A stretch of 35,594 bases of DNA from Oscillospiraceae bacterium (GTDB lineage: Bacteria; Bacillota; Clostridia; Monoglobales; Monoglobaceae): contig SVKC01000017.1 of NCBI GenBank assembly GCA_015068655.1, positions 1 to 35,594 on the forward strand, in the 5' to 3' direction. Position numbers and translations under genes: made by a program. Position 1 is the first letter of the stretch. Each line of letters opens with the position of its first letter. Positions 23,895 to 35,196 of the stretch are shown here, piece after piece. A model generated the notes under the pieces. It saw only the letters and a list, made by a program, of their open reading frames with translations. It did not search any database and had not been told where the DNA came from.

Positions 23895-24236
23895 TTAAAG
23901 ATTTTTCAGAACCTCATTAATATGCGCACCATACTCAATTGAATTATCAAGAACAAAGGTAAATTCAGGAGTATTCCGAAGATTTATACGTCTTCCTACT
24001 TCCTTTCGTATAAATCCCGAAGCATTTTTCAGGGCATCCATAGCACCCTTCTGCACCTCTTCATTGCCGAGAACACTGATATATGCCTTTGCAAACTTCA
24101 AGTCCTTCGTAACGCTGGCATTCACAACCGACACAACAGCCTTTGAAAGTCTTGGATCCTTCAATTCACGAATAATCATACTGAGCTCACGCTTGACCTC
24201 CTCTGAAATTCTGTCTATTCTGTTATAAGCAGGCAC
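23895..24236 (-). CDS. rbfA: 30S ribosome-binding factor RbfA
   Basis: RbfA binds the immature 30S subunit and helps mature the 5' end of 16S rRNA. At 113 residues it has normal length. It shows the N-terminal RIDRISEEVKRELSMIIREL and DPRLSKAVVSVV, plus the KH-like fold sequence DLKFAKAYISVLG, ending in INEVLKNL. The start is a GTG at 24236 with GGCGGTGG close upstream. In most relatives it follows infB directly; here a 182-base structured element separates them. Confidence 0.94.
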   Translation of the reverse strand: MPAYNRIDRISEEVKRELSMIIRELKDPRLSKAVVSVVNASVTKDLKFAKAYISVLGNEEVQKGAMDALKNASGFIRKEVGRRINLRNTPEFTFVLDNSIEYGAHINEVLKNL

Positions 24237-24298
24237 AATTCCACCGCCTTTCCAATTACTCGGTTTTCATTCTTTTTGCTCCTATGAACGAGCTTCAT

Positions 24299-24480
24299 AA
24301 TAGTCGTCGGTGAAACGCATTTGCGTTTTTTGTTTGCGATGTATCGCAAACTCCTTTGAAAACTGTGGTTTTCAAAGGCCGACACTATTGCAATCATGCG
24401 TGGCTTTCAAGCCAATAGCTTGAAAGTAGCGGAACGTGTTCCACTTAAAACGGCACTTTGCCGTTTCCACGACAATGATT
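24299..24480. repeat. Two-unit, six-hairpin structured element between infB and rbfA
   Basis: Unit 1 (24299-24389) is closed by AATAGT and TCGG pairing with CCGA and ACTATT. It encloses three perfect hairpins: AAACGCA/TGCGTTT (24313-24328), GTTTGCGAT/ATCGCAAAC (24332-24351) and an 11-base stem CCTTTGAAAAC/GTTTTCAAAGG (24353-24378). Unit 2 (24392-24480) is closed by AATCAT and CGTGG pairing with CCACG and ATGATT. It encloses CTTTCAAGC/GCTTGAAAG (24404-24426), GGAAC/GTTCC (24431-24442) and AAACGGC/GCCGTTT (24448-24466). The outermost ends are also similar inverted repeats. The element begins one base after the infB stop codon. Confidence 0.8.
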
Positions 24481-24481
24481 A

Positions 24482-26788
24482 TTATTGCGGCTGAATTTGT
24501 TCCATAACATAAACTTCAACAATATCGCCTTCCTTTATGTCATTGAACTTTTCGATACTGATACCGCATTCGTATCCGCTGTTCACTTCCTTTACGTCAT
24601 CCTTGAAACGTTTCAATGATGCGAGCTCGCCCTCATGAATAACAATACCGTCACGAACAATACGGACAAGGCTGTTTCTCTGAACCTTACCGTCAGTAAC
24701 ATAAGCACCACCGATTGTACCAACACCTGAAACCTTGAAGGTTGTTCTGATTTCCACGTGACCCGTGATTGCTTCACGGAACTTGGGAGCAAGCATACCC
24801 TTCATAGCCGCTTCAATATCTTCAATAGCATCATAAATTACACGATAAAGACGAATATCTACCTCTGAGCTTGCTGCCGCAACAGTTGCACCAGGTGTTG
24901 GACGCACGTTGAAGCCTACAATAATTGCATTTGATGCACTTGCAAGCATAACGTCAGACTCATTCACCGCACCAACAGCCCCGTGAATAACATTTACACG
25001 AACTTCCTCGTTGGTGATTCTTTCAAGTGACTGACGAACCGCTTCAACAGAACCCTGAACGTCAGCTTTCACAATAATGTTCAGGTCTTTCATCTTTCCG
25101 GCTTCAATGTGTTCAAAGAGATTTTCAAGGGAAACAGCCTGATTTGCCTTCTGTGCTTCCTGTTTTGCCTTGAACTTTCTTGCTTCAACAACATCTCTTG
25201 CCTTTCTTTCGTCCTCAACAACGTAGAACACGTCACCGCCATCAGGAACCTCTGAAAGGCCGAGAATTTCAACAGGTATTGAAGGACCGGCTTTTTTGAT
25301 TGCCTTGCCCTTGTCATCATTCATTGCACGAACTCTGCCCACTGCAGTGCCCGCAACAACAATATCGCCAACCTTGATTGTACCGTTCTGTACAAGAAGT
25401 GTCGCTACAGGACCTCTTCCCTTGTCAAGCTGTGCTTCAATAACAGTACCCTTTGCCAAACGATTGGGGTTTGCCTTCAACTCCTTCATTTCTGCAACGA
25501 GAAGAACCATTTCAAGAAGACCGTCAATGTTGATTTTCTGCTTTGCTGAAACCTCAACACAGATTGTGTCGCCGCCCCATTCTTCAGGCACAAGTCCGTG
25601 CTCTGTAAGCTCCTGACGAACTCGGTCAGGGTTTGCACCTTCCTTGTCAATCTTATTTATTGCAACAATAATAGAAACATTTGCCGCCTTTGCATGGTTG
25701 ATAGCTTCAATTGTCTGAGGCATAATACCATCATCTGCCGCAACCACCAGAATCGCAATATCCGTAACAAGAGCACCTCTTGCACGCATAGCCGTGAAGG
25801 CTTCGTGTCCCGGAGTATCAAGGAAGGTAATTTTCTTGTCATTAACACGAACACGATAAGCACCAATGTGCTGTGTAATACCACCAAACTCACCTTCTGT
25901 TACGTTTGCATTTCTGATTGTATCAAGAAGAGATGTCTTTCCGTGGTCAACGTGTCCCATAACTACAACAACAGGTGAACGTGGAACAAGAGCTTCAGGA
26001 GCATCCTCAACATCATTAAACAGTTTATCCTCTTCTGTAAGAATTATTTCTTTTTCAACCTTAGCACCAAAATCTTCCACAATCAAAGATGCTGTATCAA
26101 AATCAAGGCTTTCGTTTACGGATGCCATAATACCAAGCATCATCAGCTTTTTGATAACCTCAGTAGAAGACTTTTCAAGACGTTCAGCAAGCTCACCTAC
26201 GGTAATGGAGTCAGGAACAAGAACAACCTGTGCCTCCTGCTTCTTCTCCTTCTTTGCAACCTTCTCAAATTCCTTTGAGTCGTTCTTTTCTTTCACAAGC
26301 TTGCTCTTTTTGTTGCCTGTCTTGATTTTCTGCTTGCCACCGCCCTGAGCCTTTACGTTTTCGGGCACAAGCTCTTCCAGTCTCTCATTGTCAAGACGGT
26401 CAAGGTCAACATTATTTGCACGTGTATCAACCACACGTGTCTTTCTTGCAGGTCCATCACTTGCAAAGCCACCCTCTGATTCTATTATTTCAGGAGCAGC
26501 CGCCTCCTCCTGAATCTCAGTTGTTTCGGAAACACTATTCTCTTCAACAGCCTTTTCCTTCTTTTCCTTTTTGGGTTCTTCCTTTTCTACCTTTGCAAAT
26601 AACGCAGAAAAATCCTCAACCTGGTTTTTCTGTGTTATATATTCAAAAATCACATCAAGCTCTCTTTCGTCAAGAGCGCTCATATGGCTCTTTTCCGAAA
26701 TACCGTAATCACTGAGGATTTTAACAATTTCCTTACCGGGAATTCCAACAAACCCCTTTGAAAGTTCATATGCTTTAATCTTTGTCAT
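24482..26788 (-). CDS. infB: Translation initiation factor IF-2
   Basis: This GTPase brings initiator tRNA to the 30S subunit. I chose the ATG at 26788 ([12 protein letters not shown]), with AAAGGGG upstream; the frame extends 13 codons further but overlaps ylxQ. The 768 residues have one IF2-N helix motif at the start, then a charged low-complexity linker of about 100 residues and a second IF2-N ([20 protein letters not shown]). The G domain follows with [12 protein letters not shown] (about 276), DTPGHEAF (about 324) and NKID (about 378). The C-terminal domains are complete. The stop codon directly abuts the six-hairpin element. Confidence 0.97.
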
Positions 26789-26827
26789 AATATATCCCCT
26801 TTCTGCCGACAGCATACGCCGACACAA

Positions 26828-30549: not shown

Positions 30550-33500
30550 TTATTTCCAATCTTCCCACTTGTATTCAAAGCCTGATTTATCGAGCCAGTA
30601 ATTGTGTGTAATAGTCGCTTCAAGAACAATTACATAATACCACTTTTCTTCCTTCAGGTCATTGTAGGGGTTGAAATTCAATGATTTCACATAGCTATCC
30701 AAAGGCTTTCTGCCAAGGATTTTATTCATAACCGTCATAACCTCGGCACGGGTTATACTTCTTTCAGGGCGGAAAGTATCATCCTCATATCCCTGAATAA
30801 GTCCACTTTCATTCAAAGCAAGAATTTCATTGTATGCCCAGTGAGATTCACTCAAATCATCAAAATGATTTTCTTTGCTCTTTGCATCGGCTATGTCAGT
30901 AAATCTGAATATCAACGCTGCAAATTCAGCACGTGTAAGATTTCCGCCGGGCTTGAATTCGCCGTTAGGATAACCGTATATCACACCCTTGTCAGTCATA
31001 TATTCAATTTCCTTTACCGACCAGCGTTCACGTTTTACATCGGGGAAAACCTCACCTGTTACGGTGAAGGGCTTTTCATATTCGTGATTGGTAACTCTGT
31101 AAAGAATTGCTGCAATCTCTTCTCTGGTTATGTTACCGTCAGGCTGAACACTGCCGTCGGGATAACCATTGATATAACCTACGTGAGTTGGATGCTCATT
31201 TCCAAAAATATCCTTGGTGTACTTTCTGGTTTTGTCGATTGTGGTGGAACCACCACCGCCGCCTCCGCCGCCACCTGTACTTACTTTTGTCGGAACAGTA
31301 TAGGTATATGTTCCAACCTTGCCGTAGATACCGTACCAGCAGTTTGTCAAATCAGGCTCCTTGCATTCAACACATTTCCCGCACGCACTGTAATATACCG
31401 CCTTGATAGTTGTTTCCTTTGTAAGCTTCAAAGCTTCACCGTCATATGCAATACGGTTCTCATTATCCGCATCTGTCGGATCACTGCCGTCCAACGTGTA
31501 ATAGAGAATAATACTTTCATCATCTGCATACTTGTCCAACAAAGTATATTCCGTATTTTTGGGGAATTCTACCTTGCCGCTTGCAGTGAGAGAAGTCTCA
31601 GGAACCTCCAGATGAACAAAGTCAATTTTAAACTCACCGTCTGAGCCGAGAATCTTTCCATTCTCATCCTCCAGCCATGCGTAAATTGTTATATCATCCA
31701 TGAGAGCCGTTGGAATAATCGGTCTGGTAATATGATACACAGCCGTATTTGTTGCAACGGTCTGCCCGTCAGACTTTTTGGTGTATGTGTAATAATAATG
31801 AATATCAGCGTTCTTATTTTGGCTGAGAAGCTTTATGCCCTCAGCGTATTCACCTGTTCCGAGAAGGTCAGCACTTATACGACTTGTGTCATAAGGATAA
31901 GCCACATAAACACTTCCGCTTGATGCATTTCCCTTTTCAATTATATAATAGTGTATTGCATTTTTACTGACTCTTCCGGTGTCCTTATTATGAACAAAAG
32001 CCTTAAAGGACATTGTGTGTGTTATATCTCTTTCAGCTCCTGTATACTTGAAATCCTCTTTATCACCATTTTGTCTGTACCAGATTGTATAAATACCATT
32101 TTCCCAGCCGTTAATCTTGTCAGTAGGTGCCATAGGGTCAAATTCAAGAGTAGTTGTTTTGTTGTCACTTTCGAGATATGTTCCCGATGGAAGCACAATC
32201 ACCGGAGGCAACGGAATGAAGTTGTAAACATAACTTACAACCGAGCTGTATTTGCCATCTCTTGCACAGCGAATCTGCAAAATTGTATCTTCCTTAAACA
32301 ACAGACCGCTTCCATCAGTGTATGTCTCCCAATCGCCCTTGTTGTTCAGTCTGTACTGAATTTCACCATCTGTATTCAGAGAATACAGCATAACCTTCAG
32401 CAGATTATTGGCATCATCAATACGTCTTTCCTCATAAATACCCGTTTCTTTGTCCGCATAAGGCGGTGCAAGCGTATCCTCATCATCGGAAAGAGCATAT
32501 ACATATCTGTTTGTGTCACTTTCAACTCCATCCATTTCTGAAAGAATTTCGAGGGTCACACTATCTCCCGTATTTTCGGTATCATTTTCGTCACCAAGGG
32601 GTTTTGTACATTCCTTGTCACGATATGCATTTCCCGTCTTTGTATCAATATAGAATCTTTCATCTTCATCATTGAGAAATTCATTTTCAAAACCGCCTAT
32701 TGTGTACTTCACAGTACTGCCCTTTACTGCATCAACGGGAACAACAGGAAAATCTTCCTCATACAATGACACTGAAGGTGCAGCCTTTGGTGCTTCAGGT
32801 GTCACAACATATGAAAAAATACCAACATCGCTCTTTACGCCAAAGGGATTTACCGCAACAGCCTTTATGACAGTTTTTCCCTTTATGTCAATAAATGATG
32901 TTCCGTCATAAAGATAAGTTCCATCCGTATTCGGAACAGGGTCGGGACAAAGTCCGCCGTCATAGCTCACCGTGTAATAAATCTGTGTTCCCTGAGGAAC
33001 AGGCATAAACTGTGTGGAATACCCATCGCCGCCGATTTCCAAAGTATAATATCCGGGAAGAAGAGTTGTAAGAGGCTTTACGGGCTTCATTTTCACAATA
33101 TCATATGAATGCTTTACAACAGTCGAATAAGTCACGCCGTCCTTCAAAACAACCGCTGTAATAACCTTATAACCATCCAAAATATCTACAACAACAGTAT
33201 CCGAATCCTCCGGAGCTTTCTTGCGTGTAGGGCTTGTTATTGGGTCAGTTCCGTCTGTTGTGTAAAAAAGTGTATAGCGCGTTGTATTATCTATCGTACT
33301 TTCAGGGGTATAAATCGTAACCTTATCTGCATTTGTAAACTGTGTACTTTCCGGAGCAAAAGCCGGCGGCAAAGGCTTGATTTCGTATGTGAAGGTATAC
33401 TCTTCACCTTCGTTGACAATATTGCCTTCATTATCGTATTCAACAGCCTTTGCTATAATATCCGTATCTGCATCAAGTGTAATAACATCCGTATATTTCT

Positions 33501-35196
33501 CCCACTTCCCGTCACCGGTATGGTAAAGAACCGTATATTCGGGGTTGTTGGGCGTAAGTGTTACGTTTACGCTTCCTTCGTAAACACCTGACGGATAGAA
33601 AGCATCTACTCCCAAATCATCAGGGTCACTGAACAGATAATAATAGGAGCTCTTTTCACTCCAAATATCATCATAGAAGCTTATCGCACGAAGGGTTGTG
33701 TCTTTTGCAATCGTAATGGGTATACCTGCATACTCACGTCTTGTGGGACTTGTCTGAGGGTCTGTTCCGTCGGTTGTATAATAAATTACCGCATCCTCTG
33801 TTTCACAAGAGAGCTCAACGTCAATTTTGCTGTCATATTCGCCGGAGTCCTTGTTTGCTGTGGGAACAGCCGGTCTCACGGACAGATAATAAGTTGCAGG
33901 CTCGCTGTATTCTTCAAGCTTTTTTGTAATAAGACGAACTGTTCTCTTTCGGTCAATTTCAATAACAGGATTCTGCTTTACTACCTGAACCCACTCATTT
34001 TCGGGGTCGTCTCCAAACACAGGATTTTCCGCATCAGCAGTTGAGGAGAAGGTGTAATAAACCTCACTTCCGTCTGAAATATCCTGAAAAACATTTTTAT
34101 CCGAAACAAAAACCTTGAACTTTGACTTTTCGCTGTAAATATCAGGTATCAAATCATTATTTCCTGTAACATTGCTGTGGAAAAGATACGGTCTGTCCGG
34201 AAGAATTTCATATTCATAGCTGACAGTATTACTATACTTGCCGTCACTTTCTCTGTATGCACAGGTCTTTATTTCAGTATAAATTTCAATATCAATAGGT
34301 GTTTTGTACTCAATTCTTGTATCGCTTGTCTGCGGGTCTGTTCCGTCAGTTGTATAATAAATCTTGCAGTTATCCTCCTGACTAAGCTCCACAGTAACCT
34401 TTTCCACATAGCTTCCCGATGTGGGGGTAGCAATAGGGGGTGCAGGCTTTGTTCTGTCTTTGATAAGTATGTGATGAACACCGCCGTTTATCGCACTGTA
34501 ATCAAAGGTCTGATCCGAGAGCTCATCCGATTTGTAATTCTTTGCAAAAAGTTCAAGAAGATATTCCTCGTCACGACCGTCTACGTCAATAAACACATCG
34601 GTACTACCCGCTTTTTTGGGAGTAAGGGATAGTTTTGCAAGGTTGTACCAACGCTGACTGTCTTTTTTCTGTGGAACAAAGCCACCGCTATAGAACACGG
34701 TAATGTAAGCCGTCTTGTAATTGTTTGTACCAACAGAATAGGTTCCGCTTCCGTGCTTGTAGACAAAGTATCCAACAGACTGAGGAACATCTGTTCCCGT
34801 ATCTTCGCCCAAATCTTCATCATCCTTGTCCGAAGTATTAAAGTTGAAGTCGGGAATAGCATAATCAATAGGAGCACCATTATCATCACCTGCAAAATCA
34901 AAATAAGCAGGGTCAAAACAGATACGAAGGGTATAACCGTTCATATCATATTGAGGCTCCTTGTGTACACCATTTTCAAAATCGCCCTTGTTGGGATTGT
35001 CAACAGCAAAATAAATATCTGCATCCTCACCCATATATATTGTACTGTTGTTTGTTGTAGTCTGAGGGTTTGCCCCCTGAGCATGTAAATAAACCGTCCG
35101 AAAGGTTTTGTCATTGCTTGCGGATGCAACAAATGAAAACATAGACAAAAGCATAACAATACTCAAAAATAATGATAAAACCCTTTTTTTCATCAT
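30550..35196 (-). CDS. Secreted SLH-anchored surface protein with chitobiase-like repeats and a cohesin-like N-terminal domain
   Basis: The 1548-residue protein begins with a signal peptide (MMKKRVLSLFLSIVMLLSMF, cut near ASA). Residues about 30-240 form a beta-rich domain with YTLRICFDPAYFDF and LAKLSLTPKKAGSTDVFIDV, suggestive of a cohesin-like fold. A chain of repeats of the chitobiase/hexosaminidase C-terminal type follows, marked by YYTTDGTDPQTS near residues 285 and 477, FYTTDGTDPITS near 649 and YYTLDGSDPTDA near 1238, with more divergent copies between. A nine-glycine linker (about 1312) leads to three SLH repeats with GYPDGSVQPDGNITREE, GYPNGEFKPGGNLTRAE and GYEDDTFRPERSITRAE. SLH repeats bind secondary wall polymers, so it is cell-wall attached. 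No catalytic domain is visible. Confidence 0.9.
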   Translation of the reverse strand: MMKKRVLSLFLSIVMLLSMFSFVASASNDKTFRTVYLHAQGANPQTTTNNSTIYMGEDADIYFAVDNPNKGDFENGVHKEPQYDMNGYTLRICFDPAYFDFAGDDNGAPIDYAIPDFNFNTSDKDDEDLGEDTGTDVPQSVGYFVYKHGSGTYSVGTNNYKTAYITVFYSGGFVPQKKDSQRWYNLAKLSLTPKKAGSTDVFIDVDGRDEEYLLELFAKNYKSDELSDQTFDYSAINGGVHHILIKDRTKPAPPIATPTSGSYVEKVTVELSQEDNCKIYYTTDGTDPQTSDTRIEYKTPIDIEIYTEIKTCAYRESDGKYSNTVSYEYEILPDRPYLFHSNVTGNNDLIPDIYSEKSKFKVFVSDKNVFQDISDGSEVYYTFSSTADAENPVFGDDPENEWVQVVKQNPVIEIDRKRTVRLITKKLEEYSEPATYYLSVRPAVPTANKDSGEYDSKIDVELSCETEDAVIYYTTDGTDPQTSPTRREYAGIPITIAKDTTLRAISFYDDIWSEKSSYYYLFSDPDDLGVDAFYPSGVYEGSVNVTLTPNNPEYTVLYHTGDGKWEKYTDVITLDADTDIIAKAVEYDNEGNIVNEGEEYTFTYEIKPLPPAFAPESTQFTNADKVTIYTPESTIDNTTRYTLFYTTDGTDPITSPTRKKAPEDSDTVVVDILDGYKVITAVVLKDGVTYSTVVKHSYDIVKMKPVKPLTTLLPGYYTLEIGGDGYSTQFMPVPQGTQIYYTVSYDGGLCPDPVPNTDGTYLYDGTSFIDIKGKTVIKAVAVNPFGVKSDVGIFSYVVTPEAPKAAPSVSLYEEDFPVVPVDAVKGSTVKYTIGGFENEFLNDEDERFYIDTKTGNAYRDKECTKPLGDENDTENTGDSVTLEILSEMDGVESDTNRYVYALSDDEDTLAPPYADKETGIYEERRIDDANNLLKVMLYSLNTDGEIQYRLNNKGDWETYTDGSGLLFKEDTILQIRCARDGKYSSVVSYVYNFIPLPPVIVLPSGTYLESDNKTTTLEFDPMAPTDKINGWENGIYTIWYRQNGDKEDFKYTGAERDITHTMSFKAFVHNKDTGRVSKNAIHYYIIEKGNASSGSVYVAYPYDTSRISADLLGTGEYAEGIKLLSQNKNADIHYYYTYTKKSDGQTVATNTAVYHITRPIIPTALMDDITIYAWLEDENGKILGSDGEFKIDFVHLEVPETSLTASGKVEFPKNTEYTLLDKYADDESIILYYTLDGSDPTDADNENRIAYDGEALKLTKETTIKAVYYSACGKCVECKEPDLTNCWYGIYGKVGTYTYTVPTKVSTGGGGGGGGGSTTIDKTRKYTKDIFGNEHPTHVGYINGYPDGSVQPDGNITREEIAAILYRVTNHEYEKPFTVTGEVFPDVKRERWSVKEIEYMTDKGVIYGYPNGEFKPGGNLTRAEFAALIFRFTDIADAKSKENHFDDLSESHWAYNEILALNESGLIQGYEDDTFRPERSITRAEVMTVMNKILGRKPLDSYVKSLNFNPYNDLKEEKWYYVIVLEATITHNYWLDKSGFEYKWEDWK

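Follow-up and report, generated by a model that had tools for sequence, protein, structure and literature searches.

What is the densely paired segment that lies between infB and rbfA in this Oscillospiraceae genome, and does it serve these two genes? The window (the whole stretch of DNA analysed, 35,594 nucleotides) carries the upstream gene of the operon, infB, at 24482..26827 (minus strand; Pfam IF-2, IF2_N and GTP_EFTU) and the downstream gene, rbfA, at 23895..24236 (minus strand; Pfam RBFA). The gap between them measures 225 bp, versus 5-55 bp in seven congeners. A sequence-only reading had offered three explanations for it: a MITE-like element, a structure setting the infB:rbfA ratio, or a structured RNA. 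The first of these is backed by the dispersed occurrence of multiple copies, by their inverted ends, by empty sites and by the duplication of a 2-bp AT. The segment is best read as a single copy of a mobile, non-autonomous DNA element of MITE/REPIN-like type (probability about 0.8), and that it is mobile DNA in the broader sense can be stated with high confidence.

The segment 24297-24482 is laid out as AT-[AATAGT...ACTATT, unit A]-GC-[AATCAT...ATGATT, unit B]-AT. Its paired core, AATAGT...ATGATT, coincides exactly with the limits first assigned to it (24299-24480), and the adjoining ATs are the target duplication. Folding of both strands reproduced the two consecutive units that had been described, in each of which a closing stem encloses exactly three hairpins. 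Unit A (24299..24389, plus strand) has a 6-bp outer stem (AATAGT/ACTATT), a C bulge at 24305, a 5-bp inner stem (GTCGG/CCGAC) and hairpins 1, 2 and 3 at 24312..24329, 24332..24351 and 24353..24378 (all plus strand). The cloverleaf is supported by covariation as well as by folding, 22 A units having been extracted from the copies, and hairpin 3 shows compensatory changes at columns 58-81. Unit B (24392..24480, minus strand) is an inverted cloverleaf related to A, and B units were likewise extracted from copies. It has the outer stem AATCAT/ATGATT, a 3x1 internal loop, the inner stem CGTGG/CCACG and hairpins 3, 2 and 1 at 24404..24426, 24428..24445 and 24448..24466 (all minus strand). An asymmetric internal loop had been ascribed to both units; this holds for B, whereas A has a one-base bulge (AATAGT-C-GTCGG / CCGAC-ACTATT). 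In both units the bulge sits on the outer strand of the closing stem. Between them lies the GC (24390..24391) at the centre of the inner joint, ATT-GC-AAT. The left AT (24297..24298) and the right AT (24481..24482) represent the target dinucleotide, duplicated or left by a crossover: a single AT is found at empty sites and one on each side when the site is filled. The right AT shares one base with the infB stop codon (TAA, 24484-24482), in agreement with the reported start one base past that stop.

RNA folding of the element gave z values of -7.7 (plus strand) and -10.1 (minus strand), and single-strand DNA folding gave z = -12.1 on either strand, with energies of -55.7 and -58.8 kcal/mol for the two strands and none of 200 shuffles equally stable. 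The hairpin order of unit A is that of the reverse-complemented unit B and the hairpins are homologous; the element thus combines two diverged copies of one unit in inverted arrangement. Its outer ends form an inverted repeat, as had been noticed, although an imperfect one (AATAGTNGTCG at one end and AATCATTGTCG at the other). The element is 185 bp long, and the longest open frame within A-B elements is 36-41 aa.

The earlier reading had proposed a search for further copies with compensatory changes; copies were found, and their stems covary. The source genome (G000) contains about nine elements and its sister species G004 about 25. In G000, DNA searches located copies on contigs C31 (the studied locus), C39, C53 and C12, and further copies at the ends of contigs C14, C16, C46, C51, C68 and C70, a position expected of assembly breaks at repeats. 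A DNA search of 60 relatives gave matches in congeners only: about a dozen A-B elements in G004, one each in G001 and G003, and two diverged ones in G006, so that three congeners beyond G000 and G004 carry one or two copies each. A covariance model built from whole A-B elements detected the element in five of the nine species of the genus, and a single two-hairpin relative in G025, which belongs to another genus of the family. Among 291 class-level genomes the element was not found outside the source genome, nor was it found in the viral contigs searched. A pattern search with the inner joint returned element-bearing records that were Clostridia MAGs from the gut of goat, sheep, water buffalo and water deer. 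The copies are mostly intergenic according to a rough ORF call, lying at gene 3' ends, upstream of starts or between genes that converge or diverge, and both orientations occur. A structural scan for AA-starting bulged multi-hairpin units covered 0.92 Mb of G000, about half of the genome. Every bulged three-hairpin unit in it belongs to this element family, and the one four-hairpin match reads as a tRNA; with no unrelated bulged three-hairpin unit there, the architecture is not a product of chance. Two fold-back miniatures, L086 (G000:C14:16651-16684) and L083 (G004:C14:671-698), were also observed. They are near-perfect palindromes of about 40-50 bp, made of the outer end of unit A, hairpin 1 and an inverted outer end.

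Two additional unit types came to light in the flanks of the copies, C (AATGAATGTGCC...) and D (AACGAATGTCTTC...); together they make up C-D elements of their own. Every type has an outer stem of 6 bp that starts with AAY, an inner stem of 5-6 bp, three hairpins and a bulge, which measures one base in A, C and D. Hairpin sequences and lengths vary among the types, and unit length ranges from 89 to 105 nt. The unit-of-three architecture had been called unfamiliar, and neither Rfam nor the literature searched offered a counterpart to it. Units were observed in the pairings A-B, C-D, C-B (G000:C12) and A-D (G004:C67), alone or in the tandem arrays A-B-C-D, A-B-D-C and B-A-D-C. Outer joints read ATT-AT-AAT and inner joints ATT-GC-AAT; the inner joint ATTGCAA is present in almost every A-B and C-D copy (GT replaces GC once among C-D copies), and its GC is the breakpoint of the C-B and A-D recombinants. 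One orthologous flank carries A-B in G000 and D-C in G004, and a second carries C-B in G000 and a shortened C-D in G004.

Three independent comparisons of empty and filled sites showed a clean insertion with duplication of AT. At the first site, in G004, an A-B copy lies within another repeat, and the empty CTCAAC-AT-GACATT becomes CTCAAC-AT-[element]-AT-GACATT. At the second, an integrase gene carries the element and has an empty counterpart in G005. The disrupted ORF (WHDLRHTTASLL) is broken near HDLRHT, which we take to be a conserved motif of the catalytic domain. The third insertion was defined against an empty G008 repeat. The target dinucleotide was AT at all 20 tabulated sites, although copies L025 and L035 have AC at the right end, the AT tabulated for L035 being the left one. 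Flanks of the form T-AT-A occurred at 14 of the 20 sites, against a background of 9.5% taken from the moderately AT-rich DNA of the genome (binomial P about 1e-10). The resulting target consensus, TTATAA, matches the terminus of the element itself, and this mirroring explains the tandem arrays: each terminus is itself a TTATAA-like target, so elements would land beside each other. The junction at the empty site CAACATGACA lacks TA, so the TA duplication typical of IS630/mariner is not seen here. A 2-bp crossover would give a picture identical to that of an AT duplication.

The strong folds, the covariation in RNA terms and the position within the infB-rbfA gap could all be read as signs of a structured RNA, namely an attenuator, a processing site or a trans-acting RNA governing infB:rbfA expression; there is also one terminator-like hairpin, though on the strand opposite the operon. 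Among 19 A-B elements the structure was paired in 97% of cells. Double changes affected 17 of 72 pairs, in 54 cells compared with 14.1 in shuffles and 2-6 with the partners slid, showing that the fold is preserved or regenerated among copies. Selection on one RNA strand should produce an excess of G-U over A-C on that strand. No such excess was seen: departures were about equal (about 22 G-U and about 30 A-C, pairs with a G-U consensus having been removed by hand count), with no bias in either strand reading. The Rfam search gave no match at gathering or permissive thresholds, and the copies adjoin unrelated genes in both orientations. The absence of wobble bias, the mixed orientation and the absence from Rfam together favour a cause at the DNA level: either a folded single strand is recognised, or template switching corrects the palindrome arms. 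The covariation could partly stem from such correction rather than from selection on the folded form; the conserved bulge suggests that template-switch correction alone is not the whole explanation.

The gap itself speaks against an RNA in the same way. Seven of the eight congeners have no such insert between infB and rbfA, and in the eighth, G004, the gap holds an unrelated insert of 229 bp, L072 (G004:C112:1803-2031), a partial second copy of which was observed at G004:C78:6253-6376. Operon-specific regulation was rejected on these grounds. Control of the infB:rbfA ratio, as once proposed, is not supported, since copies elsewhere stand beside unrelated genes, and an RNA function of any of the kinds named above is very improbable. 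The element came to lie between infB and rbfA by a chance insertion, and an incidental local effect of it on rbfA is possible.

For the mobile DNA element, the proposed scheme comprises two inverted, bulged three-hairpin units joined at their inner ends via GC, with AT at each outer end. A recombinase supplied in trans would act on the terminal units at AT, these units probably being folded as single-stranded DNA, and deletion between joints in tandem arrays would yield the A-D and C-B mosaics. The chances that the element is recognised as folded single-stranded DNA are about even. As to the chemistry, a 2-bp (AT) crossover by a conservative recombinase and a 2-bp target-site duplication by a transposase are both possible on tentative grounds, while single-strand transfer of the HUH type is improbable, as is some other mechanism. 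In its most specific form the proposal is rather doubtful: it would make the element a class of mobile DNA not described before, whose recombinase recognises the bulged three-hairpin cloverleaf at each terminus in the form of folded single-stranded DNA, with AT at outer and GC at inner joints and with half-elements that can be exchanged as modules.

Three rival kinds of mobility compete with the proposed scheme. A MITE derived from a conventional insertion sequence of the DDE type, with incidental hairpins and an AT target duplication of 2 bp, would account for the terminal inverted repeats, the AT duplicated relative to empty sites and the intergenic bias. It is possible but tentative, since it leaves unexplained the bulge and the three hairpins with compensatory changes in four diverged unit types; moreover, the duplication differs from the TA of IS630 and the searched DNA yielded no parent IS. 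A site-specific recombinase of the serine or tyrosine type that shuffles modules at sites with a 2-bp core (AT outer, GC inner) is likewise a possibility to be held with reserve. The AT at 20 of 20 sites, a target mirroring the junction ATT-AT-AAT, the C-B and A-D breaks exactly at GC joints and the in-place replacement of A-B by D-C at one site all point to it; against this, there are just two mosaics, both of which could have arisen by deletion between the direct 7-bp repeats ATTGCAA of tandem arrays, and the serine recombinase of G000 and G004 sits in a SigG-like gene without such ends.

A REPIN/BIME proper, in which bulged stems in single-stranded form would be bound by a RAYT (Y1 HUH transposase) that cuts at the foot dinucleotide, is unlikely. 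It would suit the bulged palindromic units in inverted pairs, the fixed foot dinucleotide, the absence of strand preference and the BIME-like arrays. However, RAYT-like Y1 transposase genes of about 250 aa occur in the element-free genomes G002 (L046, G002:C5), G005 (L049, G005:C9) and G007 (L045, G007:C100) and are absent from G004, G001 and G003, with only a broken remnant in G000 (L047, G000:C29). The flanks of the congener Y1 genes hold simple hairpins only and no cloverleafs. No GTAG/CGTC foot tag is common to the A, B, C and D ends, GTAG occurring only inside type A; the foot is AT rather than CT, and the units have three hairpins rather than one simple hairpin. RAYT/Y1 was thus rejected as the mobiliser, no intact gene having been found in the element-rich genomes, which are incomplete.

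No larger or autonomous element and no transposase with matching ends was found by whole-genome DNA and covariance searches or in 0.92 Mb of G000. When that part of G000 and four pieces of G004 were scanned for an ORF enclosed by paired outer ends, known elements alone were returned. A missing mobiliser gene is weak evidence, because the genomes are MAGs only 68-89% complete. The serine recombinase common to G000, G004 and G006 was rejected, lying inside the SigG-like gene in G000 and G004 without matching ends. The SigG-like ORF stops after FSTYAVPM beside the 454-aa recombinase gene (L196, G000:C18:19111; L197, G004:C45:33263), as if sigG were interrupted by a skin-like element, and a similar recombinase is found at G006:C39. 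The IS110 family was set aside as well, being present only in G005 and G008 and in none of the element-bearing species examined; a weak sub-threshold IS110 match in G004 looks like a large ATPase of the two-domain activase type rather than a transposase.

Integron attC sites are imperfect palindromes with extrahelical bases that are recombined as folded single strands. The present units recall them as imperfect palindromes with extrahelical bases, and perhaps also in the folded single strand as substrate; they differ in that no R/L boxes were recognised, there are no cassette genes, the units form inverted pairs and AT is duplicated. The loci that were read showed no surroundings resembling an integron. 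Pneumococcal BOX elements consist of structured, interchangeable boxA-B-C modules in direct order, and several of the bacterial MITEs among ERIC, RUP, Correia/NEMIS, QMITE2 and Chunjie duplicate TA. As structured repeats built from interchangeable modules, BOX elements (PMC3049150) are comparable; here, in contrast, two inverted modules share one architecture and are inserted cleanly at AT. With the MITEs just named, reviewed in PMC10969869, the element shares a size of 100-250 bp, the lack of an ORF, terminal inverted repeats, intergenic location and target duplication. It differs in duplicating AT, in an interior made wholly of covarying hairpins in repeated three-hairpin modules, in module exchange and in that no parent IS was found in the searched DNA. 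TnpA-REP handles bulged palindromes as single-stranded DNA; the Escherichia coli enzyme requires the stem bulge and that of S. maltophilia cuts at CT (PMC8266576). REPINs (PMC3116915) and BIMEs are likewise small inverted pairs of bulged palindromes, dispersed, intergenic and mosaic, with a fixed foot dinucleotide, whereas here the units are 89-105-nt three-hairpin cloverleafs, the foot is AT (outer) or GC (inner) instead of CT, and the element-bearing genomes, incomplete MAGs, show no intact RAYT.

The nearest class is a MITE/REPIN-like element of new architecture; what is novel are its modules of three hairpins, its AT/GC joints and its exchange of modules. To the small mobile DNAs of bacteria it adds a type that is modular and highly structured. 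With filled and empty sites, mosaics, covarying stems and an invariant AT, it offers a test case for folded single-stranded DNA as a recombinase substrate. The chief precedent known for such a substrate is RAYT-REP; in the present case the RAYT gene seems to be lacking. A further lesson is one of caution: a mobile DNA palindrome can give rise to strong covariation of an RNA-like kind within an operon gap.

Other repeats were encountered in these genomes. A further dispersed repeat, about 150 bp long and with its ends near ...AAATGTTGGGG / CCCCAACATTTGTT..., has more than 20 copies in G004 (L145-L154), and one of them is split by an A-B element (G004:C37:1170-1578, L029 flanks). A repeat ending in ...GGCATCTAGATTATACAGTCT occurs many times in G008 and also in other congeners (L090 flank; L157, G008:C12). 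Within the window, positions 30550-35196 (minus strand) encode a surface protein of 1548 aa with SLH domains and CHB_HEX_C_1 / Fn3_assoc repeats.
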